From NCBI RefSeq assembly GCF_000231445.1, contig NZ_AGFR01000009.1:372001-436000 (forward strand): a stretch of DNA of 64,000 nt, in the 5' to 3' direction. This DNA is from Commensalibacter intestini A911. GTDB lineage: Bacteria > Pseudomonadota > Alphaproteobacteria > Acetobacterales > Acetobacteraceae. Shown one piece after another: positions 10,141-34,555 of this stretch (positions within the stretch are counted from its first letter, which is position 1; each line of letters opens with the position of its first letter). The translations under genes and the position numbers were made by a program. Below the pieces are notes generated by a model, which was given only the letters and a program-made list of their open reading frames with translations, had not been told where the DNA came from and searched no databases.

Positions 10141-10569
10141 ATGAAGATTGCTGAGTATGGTAAAGCCGCAGTTGATGCTGAGGTTATACTTCTGAAAAAA
10201 AAGTCAATTAGAATTAGCAAGCAAATTGTTTTGTGTTTGGTTGGAGCTCTTTTTGGCTTATTTGCATTGATTTCCATTCATGCTGTTTTGGCCGCACTTT
10301 GTTGGAATTTACTCCATACAGGTTTTTTGGGAACGTCATTGATTATTCTCGTGTTTGATGGTGTTTGTGCAGCTTTCTTATTTTGGTGTGCTTTCAAGCA
10401 AAGAGTTAGTGTGGCTGAGTTAGAAGCAAAAGTCGTTCGTAATCATAATTTAAAAGAATTACGAAATTCGCTTGCGATTACGGCATTAATTGGAACGTTA
10501 AGTGGCCCTATTGGGGGATACGTGCGTGGGATTATTTGGCAATTTATCAAAAAGATATTTAAGAAATAA
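10141..10569 (+). CDS. Small integral membrane protein, YqjE/holin-X-like
   Basis: A 142-residue protein with an amphipathic N-terminus, two strong membrane helices (about 28-52 and 58-80) separated by a short loop, a charged cytoplasmic stretch, and a Gly-rich weaker hydrophobic stretch ending in a basic tail (FIKKIFKK). Position behind the DUF883 gene and general shape fit the YqjE or putative-holin group. That holin label is only a family name; no lysis function or prophage context exists here. Function unknown. Confidence 0.65.
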   Translation: MKIAEYGKAAVDAEVILLKKKSIRISKQIVLCLVGALFGLFALISIHAVLAALCWNLLHTGFLGTSLIILVFDGVCAAFLFWCAFKQRVSVAELEAKVVRNHNLKELRNSLAITALIGTLSGPIGGYVRGIIWQFIKKIFKK

Positions 10570-10639: not shown

Positions 10640-10665
10640 TTAATAAAGTATTAATTCTTTCTTAA
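10640..10665 (+). promoter_or_regulatory. Two overlapping CtrA boxes (TTAA-N7-TTAA)
   Basis: TTAA occurs at 10640-10643, 10651-10654 and 10662-10665, each exactly 11 bp apart, giving two overlapping perfect TTAA-N7-TTAA sites 68-93 bp before the start of the CtrA-like gene. TTAA-N7-TTAA is the full CtrA recognition site in Caulobacter and relatives. TTAA is common in AT-rich DNA, but the one-turn phasing of three copies is notable. Inference: autoregulation of the downstream gene. Confidence 0.55.
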
Positions 10666-10732
10666 GTTTTAATTGATTTTTGTTTTCAACTTATGATAGT
10701 TATTAGCTAAAGAGCTATCTGGAGTAGATACT

Positions 10733-11437
10733 ATGCATGTTCTTCTTATGGGCGAAATATTCTTTTCTGAGCATGAGTTCTATCAAGAGTTGAAGGCAGC
10801 GGGCTTTTCAATTGATCGTGTTCCTTATGATACCCAGCTTTTATCGGCGTCGCGTTTCTACGATTATGATATGCTTATTATCGAGCCAGACATTTTAGAT
10901 AAGCAGTTTTTTTCTACAATTAAATTTTTAAGATCGCTTAGTGAAAAACTACCTATGCTTGTTGTTTCTAAGAAAAACGATCTTGATCTTAAAGTTCAAT
11001 CATTCCAAGTTGGTGTAGATGACTTTGTTGCTATTCCTTTTGCGATGCAGGAGCTATTAGCTCGGTGTAAGGCGCTTTTAAGGCGTGCGAATAAAGTTGT
11101 TGCAGATCGTATTGTCAAGGCAGGTCCATTACAGATTAATTTAGAAACACGTGAAGTTTCAGTTAATAATAATATGGTGCGTTTAACGGCTAAAGAATAT
11201 GCAATTCTAGAAATGCTTATTCTAAGGCGAGGTGTTTTAATTAGTAAAACAACCATTCTGAATTATTTGTATGCAGATAGCGATGATGAACCAGATATGA
11301 AAATTATCGATGTTTTTGTTTGTAAGCTTAGAAAAAAGCTACAAAATGCTGGTGCTGGAGATTTAATTTCTACGATGTGGGGGCAAGGATATATTTTTCA
11401 CAATACCCACTCTGCCTCTTCTAAAGAAGAAGCCTAG
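10733..11437 (+). CDS. ctrA: CtrA-like response regulator with Glu at the phospho-acceptor site
   Basis: 234 residues, colinear without gaps with Caulobacter CtrA (from memory) through the first 100 positions. The C-terminal OmpR-type winged helix is strongly CtrA-like: VRLTAKEYAILEMLILRRG, then DEPDMKIIDVFVCKLRKKL and WGQGYIFH. The receiver domain is unusual: acceptor Asp51 is Glu51 (YDYDMLIIE), the acidic pocket EDD is GEI (7-9), and the conserved Lys of KPF is Ile101 (AIPF). It therefore probably cannot be phosphorylated normally; E51 matches the laboratory phosphomimetic D51E. GGAG lies 8 bp before the ATG. Tandem CtrA boxes lie upstream. In Alphaproteobacteria CtrA controls cell cycle, motility or envelope genes. 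Whether this is the only CtrA or a paralogue cannot be told from the window. Confidence 0.8.
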   Translation: MHVLLMGEIFFSEHEFYQELKAAGFSIDRVPYDTQLLSASRFYDYDMLIIEPDILDKQFFSTIKFLRSLSEKLPMLVVSKKNDLDLKVQSFQVGVDDFVAIPFAMQELLARCKALLRRANKVVADRIVKAGPLQINLETREVSVNNNMVRLTAKEYAILEMLILRRGVLISKTTILNYLYADSDDEPDMKIIDVFVCKLRKKLQNAGAGDLISTMWGQGYIFHNTHSASSKEEA

Positions 11438-11469: not shown

Positions 11470-12258
11470 TTAAACAGTGAATTGCTCTGCGACTATTCTT
11501 TCTGACAGTTCATGTCCTTGGTTAAATAAAATCGTTGATTTGATTGTGCGATTTTCTTTTACAAAAACCTGTGTCACATCTCTTATTTCTGTAAAATCAG
11601 CGACAGCGGCAATAGGGCGTTTTTTTTCTTCCATGGTTAAAAATTGAATAGAAGTGTTGGAAGGAAGTAGGGCGCCTCTCCATCGACGAGGACGAAAAGG
11701 GCAGATCGGGGTCAAAGGTAAAAGCCCAGAATTTAAAGGTACAATAGGGCCATGAGCCGACAAATTATAAGCTGTTGATCCTGCTGGTGTTGATACAATA
11801 ATACCATCGCAAATAAGTTCAGGAAGTCTAATTTCATCATTGGTAATAATTTGTATTTTTGCAGCTTGTCTTGTCTGTCTATAAAGGAAAATGTCATTAA
11901 AAGCTAAAGCTGTATGTGTTTTTCCATCTGCAGTGTAAGCAGTCATGGCTAGAGGATGTAGAGAAGTTGGTTGGGCCTCGTGTAAAATTAGCGGTAAATC
12001 TTTTTCTATAGATATTTTGGGGTTGGTTAAAAAACCCACAGATCCAAAATTAATACTATAAATAGGGATTTGGTAATTTAAATAATTATGTAATGTTTCC
12101 AACATAAAGCCGTCACCACCAATACAGATGATCACTTCTGTTTCATTAATATCTGCATTGCCATATTTTTTTATCAGGTCATTTTTATATTTAATTGCTT
12201 CAGAGCTTTTAACAGATAAAAAATGTATTTTTTTTGGTGGATCAATTAGGGGCCACAT
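11470..12258 (-). CDS. nadK: NAD kinase
   Basis: Phosphorylates NAD to NADP in the cytoplasm. About 262 residues, normal for the short bacterial form. Diagnostic motifs: IGGDGFMLETLH (the GGDG phosphate-binding loop), NFGSVGFLTN, ALAFNDIF (NE/D motif) and TPAGSTAYNLSAHGPIVPL. The start ATG 12258 (MWPLIDPPKK) is chosen because GGAAATATCT precedes it; a TTG four codons upstream is also possible. It is convergent with the ctrA-like gene and leaves a 465-bp AT-rich spacer upstream. Confidence 0.95.
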   Translation of the reverse strand: MWPLIDPPKKIHFLSVKSSEAIKYKNDLIKKYGNADINETEVIICIGGDGFMLETLHNYLNYQIPIYSINFGSVGFLTNPKISIEKDLPLILHEAQPTSLHPLAMTAYTADGKTHTALAFNDIFLYRQTRQAAKIQIITNDEIRLPELICDGIIVSTPAGSTAYNLSAHGPIVPLNSGLLPLTPICPFRPRRWRGALLPSNTSIQFLTMEEKKRPIAAVADFTEIRDVTQVFVKENRTIKSTILFNQGHELSERIVAEQFTV

Positions 12259-12723
12259 AGATATTTCCAAGATAATTTAGAGTTTAGTAACTTAATATAT
12301 GGAGGCGGAGGAAAATAATTTTGCTTTATAATTTATAGTTAATGTAGTTATCTTACTTTATTTTGAAATTATTCATAGCCTATTAGACTAATTTAGTCCT
12401 TTATTTTTTTTATACAATATAATATTAAATCAAAATTAAAGTAAATTATCATTATATTTGTTTTATAATCGTTATTATTTCTGTGTATATAACATTTTGT
12501 AGAAATTGAATGTTAAAGTAAAGCAATTATTTCAACTTTTAATTGTATTTAATTGTTTTAATACAATTAAAAGTTTTGTTCATCTATAATTATTTATTTA
12601 AATTTCGTATCTATACTTGAATTTATTCGCTTGTGCTGTTAATTATTATAAGATTTATAATAAATTTTTATTTAAGCAAAATATTGTTGAATAATTATTT
12701 TTATTACGAGAGTAAATATTTTT
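12259..12723. other. Very AT-rich intergenic region, 465 bp
   Basis: Divergent spacer between nadK and the XRE regulator. It has no ORF with coding character. It contains a perfect 15-bp inverted repeat at 12534-12575 and several TTAA tetramers at irregular spacing (9-10 bp, so not CtrA boxes). It must hold both promoters, but base composition makes -10 elements impossible to single out. Confidence 0.6.
12534..12575. repeat. Perfect 15-bp inverted repeat
   Basis: AACTTTTAATTGTAT (12534-12548) and ATACAATTAAAAGTT (12561-12575) are exact reverse complements around a 12-bp spacer. It lies about 150 bp upstream of the XRE-family regulator. It could be an operator for that dimeric regulator or a hairpin in its leader; the very low GC makes a terminator unlikely. 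Confidence 0.6.
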
Positions 12724-32896: not shown

Positions 32897-32940
32897 AAAC
32901 GTAAGGGGAAGATTTATTCTTCTCTTTACGACTTACGTTT
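32897..32940. terminator. Two mutually exclusive hairpins between convergent pyk and histidine kinase
   Basis: AAACGTAAG (32897-32905) can pair with CTTACGTTT (32932-32940). Alternatively the inner CGTAAGGGGAAGA (32900-32912) pairs with TCTTCTCTTTACG (32918-32930), allowing two G-U pairs. TTTTAC follows on the plus strand and the end of the histidine kinase gene lies inside the structure. Probably a shared terminator. Confidence 0.55.
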
Positions 32941-34555
32941 TACTTCTGGCGTTTTCCATTGCTTTGATACAATCAGCCAACATAGTATGTGTAATTGGTT
33001 TTCTAATAACAAAACTCTGCGCATTAATAAATTTTTTCAACTTGCTTGGTGTTTCTTCGTATCCTGTAATAAATAAAATAGATATTTTAGGGCAGATTTG
33101 CTGAATCGCGTCTATAAATTCTTCTTTTACATCTGGTAAAAGACGGATATCAATAGCAACAAAATTGAAAAAACCATCATTTTTTAAAAGTGCAAGTGTT
33201 TCTTTTCTAGTTTGAGCAATCGCCATGGAGTAACCTAAATCTTCTAAGTTTTCACTTAGCAGCATACATAAGTGACTATCTTGTGAAATTAGCAGTGCTT
33301 TATATATTTTTGCTTTTTCATGATGATTATCCAATGTTTGTATCATTAAAGGGCGATGATAGCGTGGCAAATAAAGGCTGACAGTCGTTCCTTTATGAGG
33401 GTGGGAAATAATGCCTAAATGTCCGTTAGATTGTTTCGTAAATCCATAAGCCATTGACAATCCAAGCCCAGCCCGTTTACCTAAAGGCTTAGTTGTAAAG
33501 AATGGGTCTGTTGCTCTGCTGATCATCTCTGGAGGCATGCCTTCGCCATTATCTTCAATCATAATGACAATATAATCATCAGGTTTAATGAATTGGCGCA
33601 GAGGATTCGTGGAGGTAATGGTTATATTCTGTGTGGTGATTAAAATATGACCGCCTGAAGAGTGAATAGATTCACAAGAATTTTTAAAAATATGAAAAAG
33701 GGCATTCTTTAAGTGTTCAGGGTCGCAGAAAATAGACCAGATCATAGGTTCTAGCTGGATCTGTATATTAATAAGCTGTTTAATGCTGTCTTCTTTAATA
33801 AAATTATAAAAGGTATCCAGCAATGCTTTTATGGTATGGTTGGGATCAATTACATGTGGAATTAAAGTTTGTCGTCTTGAAAAAGAGAGTAGCTGATGAG
33901 TGATCTCTGTGGCTTTGGTTGCGGCTTTTTGTGCAGCTTCAATATAAGAAGGCAACATATTAAGTTTGCTTTGATCAATACGCATCTGCATGAGTTCTAA
34001 GTTGCCAATAATTCCTGCGAGTAATGTATTAAAATCATGTGCCAATCCACCAATTAATTGTTCAATAGTTTGGGTAGATGAAGGGACTGTTGGTTCCTTG
34101 ATATGTGTGATCATACTTAACATGCCTTGTACGAGGTTATGATCGTCAAGGATTGGGCTGAAAGTAACCTCAATTTGTGTATTGGTTAAGTGTTGGTTAT
34201 CAAGTCCTGGAATATGGTAGTCTGTCGTATATTTAATGGTTTCTTTTTGATAAATAGAGCTGACAATTTGGTTGAAATAAGCTTTACGTTCTGGCCATAC
34301 ATCCATTAACGGTCTGCCTAATAAAGCAGGATGTTTAGAACCAATCAGCTTTGCATAAGCATCATTATATAAAGCAACATTTCCTTTTCCCCAATAAATC
34401 ACCATGGGTAATGAGGTATCTAATACTAAAGATAAAATGATTTTTAAATTAGCAGGCCACGAATTTTGAGCGCCTAAAGAAGTTCCGTTCCAATCAAAGC
34501 TGTTAATCAGTTGTTTTACCGTTAAAGGCTCTGGAACGGAGGGGGTGTGTGTCAT
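32933..34555 (-). CDS. Hybrid sensor histidine kinase with C-terminal receiver domain
   Basis: 540 residues without membrane helices, so a cytoplasmic sensor. A PAS-like domain (about 25-150) has the pattern LGAQNSWPANLK to GNVALYNDAYAKLIG. The H-box is IGGLAHDFNTLLAG (His173), the N-box NALFHIFKNSCES, and the ATP lid DNGEGMPPEMISRATDPFFTTKPLG with RAGLGLSMAYG. A receiver (about 420-535) has a candidate acceptor Asp in FVAIDIRLLPD and the conserved Lys in VIRKPI, while the first acidic residue is Gln (SQDS). No response regulator is adjacent; the signal is unknown. Confidence 0.9.
   Translation of the reverse strand: MTHTPSVPEPLTVKQLINSFDWNGTSLGAQNSWPANLKIILSLVLDTSLPMVIYWGKGNVALYNDAYAKLIGSKHPALLGRPLMDVWPERKAYFNQIVSSIYQKETIKYTTDYHIPGLDNQHLTNTQIEVTFSPILDDHNLVQGMLSMITHIKEPTVPSSTQTIEQLIGGLAHDFNTLLAGIIGNLELMQMRIDQSKLNMLPSYIEAAQKAATKATEITHQLLSFSRRQTLIPHVIDPNHTIKALLDTFYNFIKEDSIKQLINIQIQLEPMIWSIFCDPEHLKNALFHIFKNSCESIHSSGGHILITTQNITITSTNPLRQFIKPDDYIVIMIEDNGEGMPPEMISRATDPFFTTKPLGKRAGLGLSMAYGFTKQSNGHLGIISHPHKGTTVSLYLPRYHRPLMIQTLDNHHEKAKIYKALLISQDSHLCMLLSENLEDLGYSMAIAQTRKETLALLKNDGFFNFVAIDIRLLPDVKEEFIDAIQQICPKISILFITGYEETPSKLKKFINAQSFVIRKPITHTMLADCIKAMENARSKT

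Follow-up and report, generated by a model that had tools for sequence, protein, structure and literature searches.

A ctrA gene with glutamate in place of the phospho-acceptor aspartate in Commensalibacter intestini A911 and its probable independence of the CckA-ChpT relay

Introduction

The cell-cycle-dependent phosphorylation of CtrA is a textbook case, and D51E is the classical active form of this regulator in Caulobacter. In the insect-associated bacterium Commensalibacter intestini A911, a ctrA-like gene lies within a 64,000-nucleotide stretch of contig NZ_AGFR01000009.1 (hereafter the window), and its product naturally carries glutamate at this very position. This raises the question of whether Glu51 stands in for the phosphate, as a preliminary description of the locus proposed, or whether the protein has ceased to use a phosphate switch. 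The laboratory allele has been called phosphomimetic (PMC4241560, PMC6363796), and overexpressed D51E and D51A are reported to differ in gene-transfer-agent output in Rhodobacter capsulatus (PMC4241560). A search of limited extent, covering literature on CtrA of Acetobacteraceae and Rhodospirillales, D51E and pseudo-receivers, found no report of a natural CtrA with E51. The patchy occurrence of cckA and chpT in Rhodospirillales is already published: as reported by Brilli et al. (2010; PMC2877005), the relay is degenerate in part of the Rhodospirillales, with cckA present without chpT, and Granulibacter is without ctrA; PMC8116508, which warns that detection may be imperfect, gives 72-82% for ctrA, gcrA and ccrM and 27-36% for chpT, cckA and divL among the Rhodospirillales that it covers.

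The ctrA gene and its phosphorylation site

The gene occupies positions 10733..11437 (+) and starts with ATG; open reading frame, profile and homology searches identified its product as a divergent, single-copy CtrA, an OmpR-family regulator of 234 residues. The genome carrying it, labelled G000, is placed in Commensalibacter, Acetobacteraceae. The top NCBIfam match is the CtrA model (residues 2-224 against model positions 2-223), at 203.3 bits and thus under the equivalog cut-off of 350 bits. Among 10 other proteins tested with this model, the cut-off was passed by the D51 proteins L170, L110 and L045 and barely passed by the E51 protein L056 (351.6 bits), and was missed by L039, L048, L102, L132, L015 and L154.

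Pfam and alignment delimit a receiver domain with a degenerate phosphorylation site at residues 1-118 (10733..11086, +; the boundary at 118 is our placement), and Pfam finds a winged-helix DNA-binding domain, Trans_reg_C, at residues 148-222 (11174..11398, +). Response_reg scores 31.3 bits against a cut-off of 30.2, which together with glutamate at 51 classes the protein as an aspartate-less (pseudo-) receiver. Direct reading of the codons, together with the alignment, gave G7 (GGC), E8 (GAA) and I9 (ATA) in place of E-D-D (codons 7-9, 10751..10759, +), Glu (GAG) in place of the phospho-acceptor Asp51 (10883..10885, +), S79 (TCT), and Ile (ATT) in place of the KPF lysine at 101 (11033..11035, +). 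The five phosphorylation positions, in CtrA numbering, are hence G7, E8, E51, S79 and I101, against E, D, D, S and K in canonical CtrA. These substitutions bear out the preliminary description, except that its degenerate acidic pocket holds for the GEI triplet as a whole but not for E8, which is still acidic. Its intact DNA-binding domain is likewise confirmed by the Trans_reg_C score of 68.1 bits and by the CtrA signature DEPDMKIIDVFVCKLRKKL, with two qualifications: one residue is inserted (SDDEP), and Gln replaces the wing Arg of WGRGY. The wing Gln is found in 8/9 Commensalibacter CtrA proteins and may alter DNA binding. A structure predicted from three sequences reached a mean pLDDT of only 50.9 and was left out of the evidence.

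Copy number and locus

A second CtrA with Asp51, which the preliminary description named as evidence against its proposal because it would make this gene a paralogue, was not found: only the window gene is CtrA-like among the six OmpR-family regulators of G000 (over the Trans_reg_C cut-off). One ctrA copy occurs in each of the nine Commensalibacter genomes, with 58-100% identity and the next match at 30% or less; CtrA of Commensalibacter relatives is 58-82% identical to the window protein (C. papalotli 82%, C. communis 75%). Two neighbouring open reading frames were assigned by our own reading: a small, YqjE-like membrane protein upstream (10141..10569, +) and a convergent NAD kinase downstream (11470..12270, -). 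The latter gene, nadK, adjoins ctrA in all eight other Commensalibacter loci and in 15 other Acetobacteraceae loci (14 D51 and one A51) of the 131 non-Commensalibacter loci searched, many of which had short flanks, the remainder giving no match; the locus of genome G021 has further neighbours in common with Commensalibacter. The shared nadK in Commensalibacter and in mostly D51 relatives indicates the same locus by descent. Together with the single copy, this rejects a paralogue, and the window gene is a vertically inherited ctrA.

Distribution of Glu51 in Acetobacteraceae and beyond

Scanning the family at E 1e-30 gave a match in 291 of 328 genomes; some of these matches may not be CtrA. Residue 51 in 136 CtrA-like proteins, a count that contains one gene twice (L052 and L169), was D in 82, E in 39, R in four, N, H and A in two each, S and Q in one each, and unreadable in three. 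The alignment suggested by the preliminary description showed that E51 prevails in a clade around Commensalibacter, which we take to be acetic acid bacteria. The 48 proteins of this clade, assigned by tree and genus, have E (37), D (6), N (2), H (2) or A (1) at 51, so that the Glu51 of the window protein is real but not peculiar to it. Within Commensalibacter, eight of nine genomes have E and one (G007) combines Asn51 with Ala101; this recurrence shows that E51 is not a chance feature of one genome. Apart from the duplicate L052, the sole E51 protein of the family outside the clade is L132 (genome G088). E51 is probably older than the genus Commensalibacter.

The remaining site positions are uneven in the clade, with D at position 8 in only 7/48 proteins and K (27), R (9), I (8), D (2), A (1) or L (1) at 101. 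Two proteins, L039 and L056, combine E51 with four intact residues at the rest of the site and represent an intermediate stage of site decay. Inside the same clade, genus g31 includes two proteins with an intact five-residue site and no detected ChpT (L102, L103), as well as His51 members (L040, L043); this mix may reflect reversion or separate histories. Five further CtrA-like proteins (L154, L156, L157, L158 and L160) have Arg or Ser in place of Asp51 and a residue other than lysine at 101, which is a second, different decay in another ChpT-less lineage.

Outside the family, 101 genomes of a class-wide sample had a match, and 70 CtrA were read, the best 30 and 40 weaker ones; the N terminus of L367 was unreadable. 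D51 was found in 68/70 and E51 with a decayed pocket in 2/70, L341 (G400, 1.1 Mb) and L349 (G401, 1.2 Mb), which belong to two small-genome alphaproteobacterial lineages. In these two proteins position 8 is N or Q and position 101 is E or R, the dimer face is kept (RDDER and KDDER), and the top NCBIfam model is CtrA, at 254 and 314.5 bits, under the cut-off.

These distributions bear on the proposal that Glu51, like the engineered D51E, keeps the receiver in its active state and was favoured by selection once the relay had gone. The prevalence of E51 in the clade agrees with it, as does the lower variability of residue 51 (entropy 1.16) compared with positions 7, 8 and 101 (1.49, 2.37 and 1.77). 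According to PMC12632262, the phosphomimetic hypothesis has Glu pairing with the conserved Thr/Ser and Lys; among the 37 E51 proteins of the clade, S or T is present at 79 in all, K at 101 in 24 and R in five (29/37 with K or R). The otherwise intact sites of L039 and L056, and the recurrence of E51 in L132, whose genome has no ChpT, and in L341 and L349, point in the same direction. PMC12632262 names Glu as the most usual replacement for Asp in aspartate-less receivers and considers a partial phosphomimetic effect possible, but also describes the hypothesis as disproved for some pseudo-receivers. Moreover, the Lys101 partner is Ile in 8/8 E51 Commensalibacter proteins, residue 51 can also be N, H, A or D within this clade and A, R or S in related ChpT-less lineages, and Asp turns into Glu through one base substitution, an easy and conservative step. 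Since other residues (D, N, H or A) stand at this position in relatives, E51 can be dispensed with, and the phosphomimetic claim is not supported in the form in which it was made. Glu51 as a phosphate mimic is unproven, and we regard it as a tenable though rather doubtful explanation.

The CckA-ChpT relay

The preliminary description also held that the regulator was freed from the CckA/ChpT relay. ChpT was absent from 9/9 Commensalibacter genomes in that no PF10090 match exceeded the cut-off, a search that a very divergent ChpT could escape; the best PF10090 match in G000 had an E-value of 0.23, and a free-standing phosphotransferase of ChpT type was not found there. The 13 HATPase_c matches in G000 comprise, by our reading, nine histidine kinases together with GyrB, ParE, MutL and HtpG, and none of the nine kinases has the CckA architecture. 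The best match to the CckA model in G000, at 232.8 bits, is a 568-residue kinase with an N-terminal and no C-terminal receiver. This model exceeded 400 bits in seven genomes of the panel described below and reached only about 350 in other ChpT-positive genomes; CckA assignment by profile was rejected, there being too many related hybrid kinases. The window itself encodes a hybrid kinase of PRK13557 type (32933-34555, -), built of PAS, histidine kinase and receiver domains, with a weak receiver under the Pfam cut-off; reading this hybrid as a CckA remnant was rejected as unsupported because PRK13557 (224.6 bits, cut-off 631) outranks CckA (166.4 bits). Among 13 receiver matches in G000, the stand-alone receiver L229 has CpdR as its best NCBIfam match, at 73.1 bits against a cut-off of 180, and L233 matched no NCBIfam model at 1e-10. 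The search for relay genes yielded neither ChpT nor a protein of CckA architecture. These results support the view that the window CtrA would be free of CckA and ChpT.

We chose a panel of 80 genomes to cover the residue-51 states. PF10090 matches over the cut-off occurred in 24, of which 21 were counted as ChpT, G009, G025 and G106 being dropped because the match lies inside a large kinase; 10 panel genomes had no readable CtrA, two of them with ChpT. All five residues (E/D7-D8-D51-S/T79-K101) were kept in 19/19 genomes with ChpT and a full-length CtrA, and in 4/51 with a full-length CtrA and no ChpT (G038, G317, G021 and G106). Fisher's exact test, which ignores relatedness, gave p 1.4e-13, a value that is too strong because the genomes are related; well-supported branches provide only three independent ChpT contrasts, all concordant (sign test p 0.25). 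L153 (G069), L159 (G040) and L155 (G093) were excluded from the intact and decayed counts. In L153 and L159, ctrA is split across two frames, through sequencing error or as a broken gene, and L155 is truncated at a contig end, so that receiver loss was rejected for all three.

The order of events was approached with a gyrB+parE tree of 50 genomes, obtained by a quick search, in which the outgroup is not monophyletic and one row is misplaced. A clade of 36 genomes (SH-aLRT 93) has ChpT in none and holds lineages with R, S, A and D at 51 together with an inner, E-dominated clade of 29 genomes (98; 19 E, 4 D, 2 N, 1 H, 1 A and 2 without CtrA). As the ChpT-less clade spans all these states, relay loss probably occurred before or with the site change. 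Residue 51 requires at least 13 changes on this tree, and E51 is therefore not frozen. The sister of Commensalibacter on this tree is G021 (89), a long-branched genome that has an intact D51 site and in which ChpT was not detected; E51 may hence have had several origins, or have reverted. The ClpXP adaptor RcdA and SciP were over the cut-off in 0/80 panel genomes, G000 included, an absence that is uninformative because the D51 relatives are also without them.

Selection on the receiver

The five dimer-face residues K87, D96, D97, E107 and R111 (span of codons 87-111, 10991..11065, +, by alignment) are retained in the window protein, and they are nearly invariant in the 48 clade proteins (47, 48, 48, 47 and 48, respectively). 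Their roles are taken from a study of RegX3 that describes K87-E107 and D97-R111 as family dimer-interface pairs and whose numbering coincides (PMC4511772). The five exceed random sets of D51-conserved receiver positions in conservation, with p about 0.002 when 71 D51 rows were used, after removal by hand of the paralogue-like L161, L162 and L152 and the ChpT-negative D51 rows L122 and L128, and p 0.007 with 76 rows. Excess decay of the five textbook phosphorylation residues over other conserved receiver positions is weaker than the dimer-face result and depends on the set chosen: p was 0.087 with 71 rows, 0.013 with 76 rows, 0.032 without S79, and 0.0016 for the set first used, in which position 55 replaced S79.

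Purifying selection acts on the receiver. Three Commensalibacter pairs had dS estimable in both domains, and their receiver dN/dS was 0.106/1.04 (L007/L008), 0.004/0.65 (L009/L010) and 0.093/1.11 (L012/L014), giving ratios of 0.10, 0.006 and 0.08; receiver dS was saturated in the three other pairs tried. A degenerating gene or functionless paralogue, with E51 as a random step of decay, is very improbable. The greater receiver diversity of the clade (mean entropy 1.69, against 0.89 in D51 CtrA) and the absence of CtrA from some relatives (G037, G084, G107 and G124) would suit such decay, but the frame is open in 9/9 Commensalibacter genomes, dN is low, the gene is single at a locus common to D51 relatives, and the DNA-binding domain is conserved (mean entropy 0.94 in the clade, 0.71 in D51 CtrA).

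A full-length receiver in 9/9 Commensalibacter genomes, with dN about a tenth of dS or less, would also be expected if, as in other pseudo-receivers, the domain were gated otherwise: by a protein partner, by a small molecule, or by a phosphate on some other residue. S79 and Y98 are each conserved in 46/48 clade proteins, T and F occurring otherwise, with F98 in the window protein. We consider such gating unlikely, as no partner or ligand is indicated and dimerisation accounts for the conserved surface. The retention of S79, a residue needed for phospho-switching, nevertheless counts against reading the receiver as a mere dimerisation scaffold.

Upstream sequence

Two overlapping TTAA-N7-TTAA matches were found by pattern search upstream of ctrA (10640..10665). 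They were rejected as a CtrA box, the pattern occurring in 0/8 other Commensalibacter and spacing N7 showing no clear excess there, and are probably chance matches in AT-rich DNA; no binding site is conserved upstream of ctrA in Commensalibacter. An element TTAAGTTTT..TTGA (10662-10676) overlaps a possible -35 region upstream of the window gene and was seen by eye also in L008, L012 and L013. Among the 39 other clade members, N7 is the commonest exact TTAA-TTAA spacing (10 upstream regions, against 1-5 for other spacings). In genus g60, the motif is placed at -141/-142 in 5/5 members with differing spacers (L047 and L149 with E51, L143 with N51, L165 and L124 with D51), which suggests autoregulation in this genus only, through a likely CtrA site.

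Discussion

We propose, with a probability of about 0.7, that the window gene encodes a relay-free CtrA whose receiver now serves as a phosphorylation-independent dimerisation scaffold, ChpT loss having been followed by decay of the site and the protein remaining constitutively competent. Under this reading, an ancestor of Commensalibacter and its relatives would have lost ChpT, and the CckA-ChpT-CtrA relay would have gone too. Decay of the phosphorylation site would have come next, Asp51 becoming Glu in most of the clade, followed by the acidic pocket at position 8 and, in Commensalibacter, by Lys101, while selection retained the alpha4-beta5-alpha5 dimer face and the DNA-binding domain. Given the replacement of Asp51 and the failure to find the phosphate-delivering proteins, the window CtrA probably works without a phosphate switch; the kept dimer face and DNA-binding domain make it most likely that it dimerises and binds DNA unphosphorylated, as a constitutively competent pseudo-receiver regulator. 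CtrA output could then be set by the amount of protein, as the preliminary description supposed, or by a further partner.

With CtrA of Caulobacter and most Alphaproteobacteria, which relies on CckA-ChpT and Asp51, the window protein shares domain order, DNA-binding signature and dimer face, but it is without Asp51 and Lys101, its pocket is decayed, and no ChpT or CckA was found. It has Glu51 in common with laboratory CtrA(D51E), whose site L039 and L056 match in full, and has additionally lost K101 and the pocket. ChxR of Chlamydia, an atypical OmpR-family regulator described as forming dimers, binding DNA and activating without phosphorylation, may be likened to it, although the two are of unrelated descent. 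As in aspartate-less receivers generally, Asp is replaced by what PMC12632262 gives as its commonest substitute; unlike in other pseudo-receivers, the change can be traced within one orthologous regulator, along with loss of the phosphotransferase.

A bolder interpretation, which we hold only tentatively and at somewhat under even odds, is that evolution has repeated the classical D51E experiment: after relay loss, the clade, G088 and the two small-genome lineages may have arrived at Glu51 and a permanently competent CtrA that runs its regulon. If true, a master switch of the cell cycle would have become a constitutive regulator governed by its own amount. By keeping CtrA and its dimer face while dismantling the site stepwise alongside ChpT loss, the clade offers a natural experiment on what CtrA gains from being phosphorylated, for which L039 and L056, with E51 in an otherwise intact site, are ready-made intermediates, and on how true receivers become pseudo-receivers, a process called poorly understood in PMC12632262.
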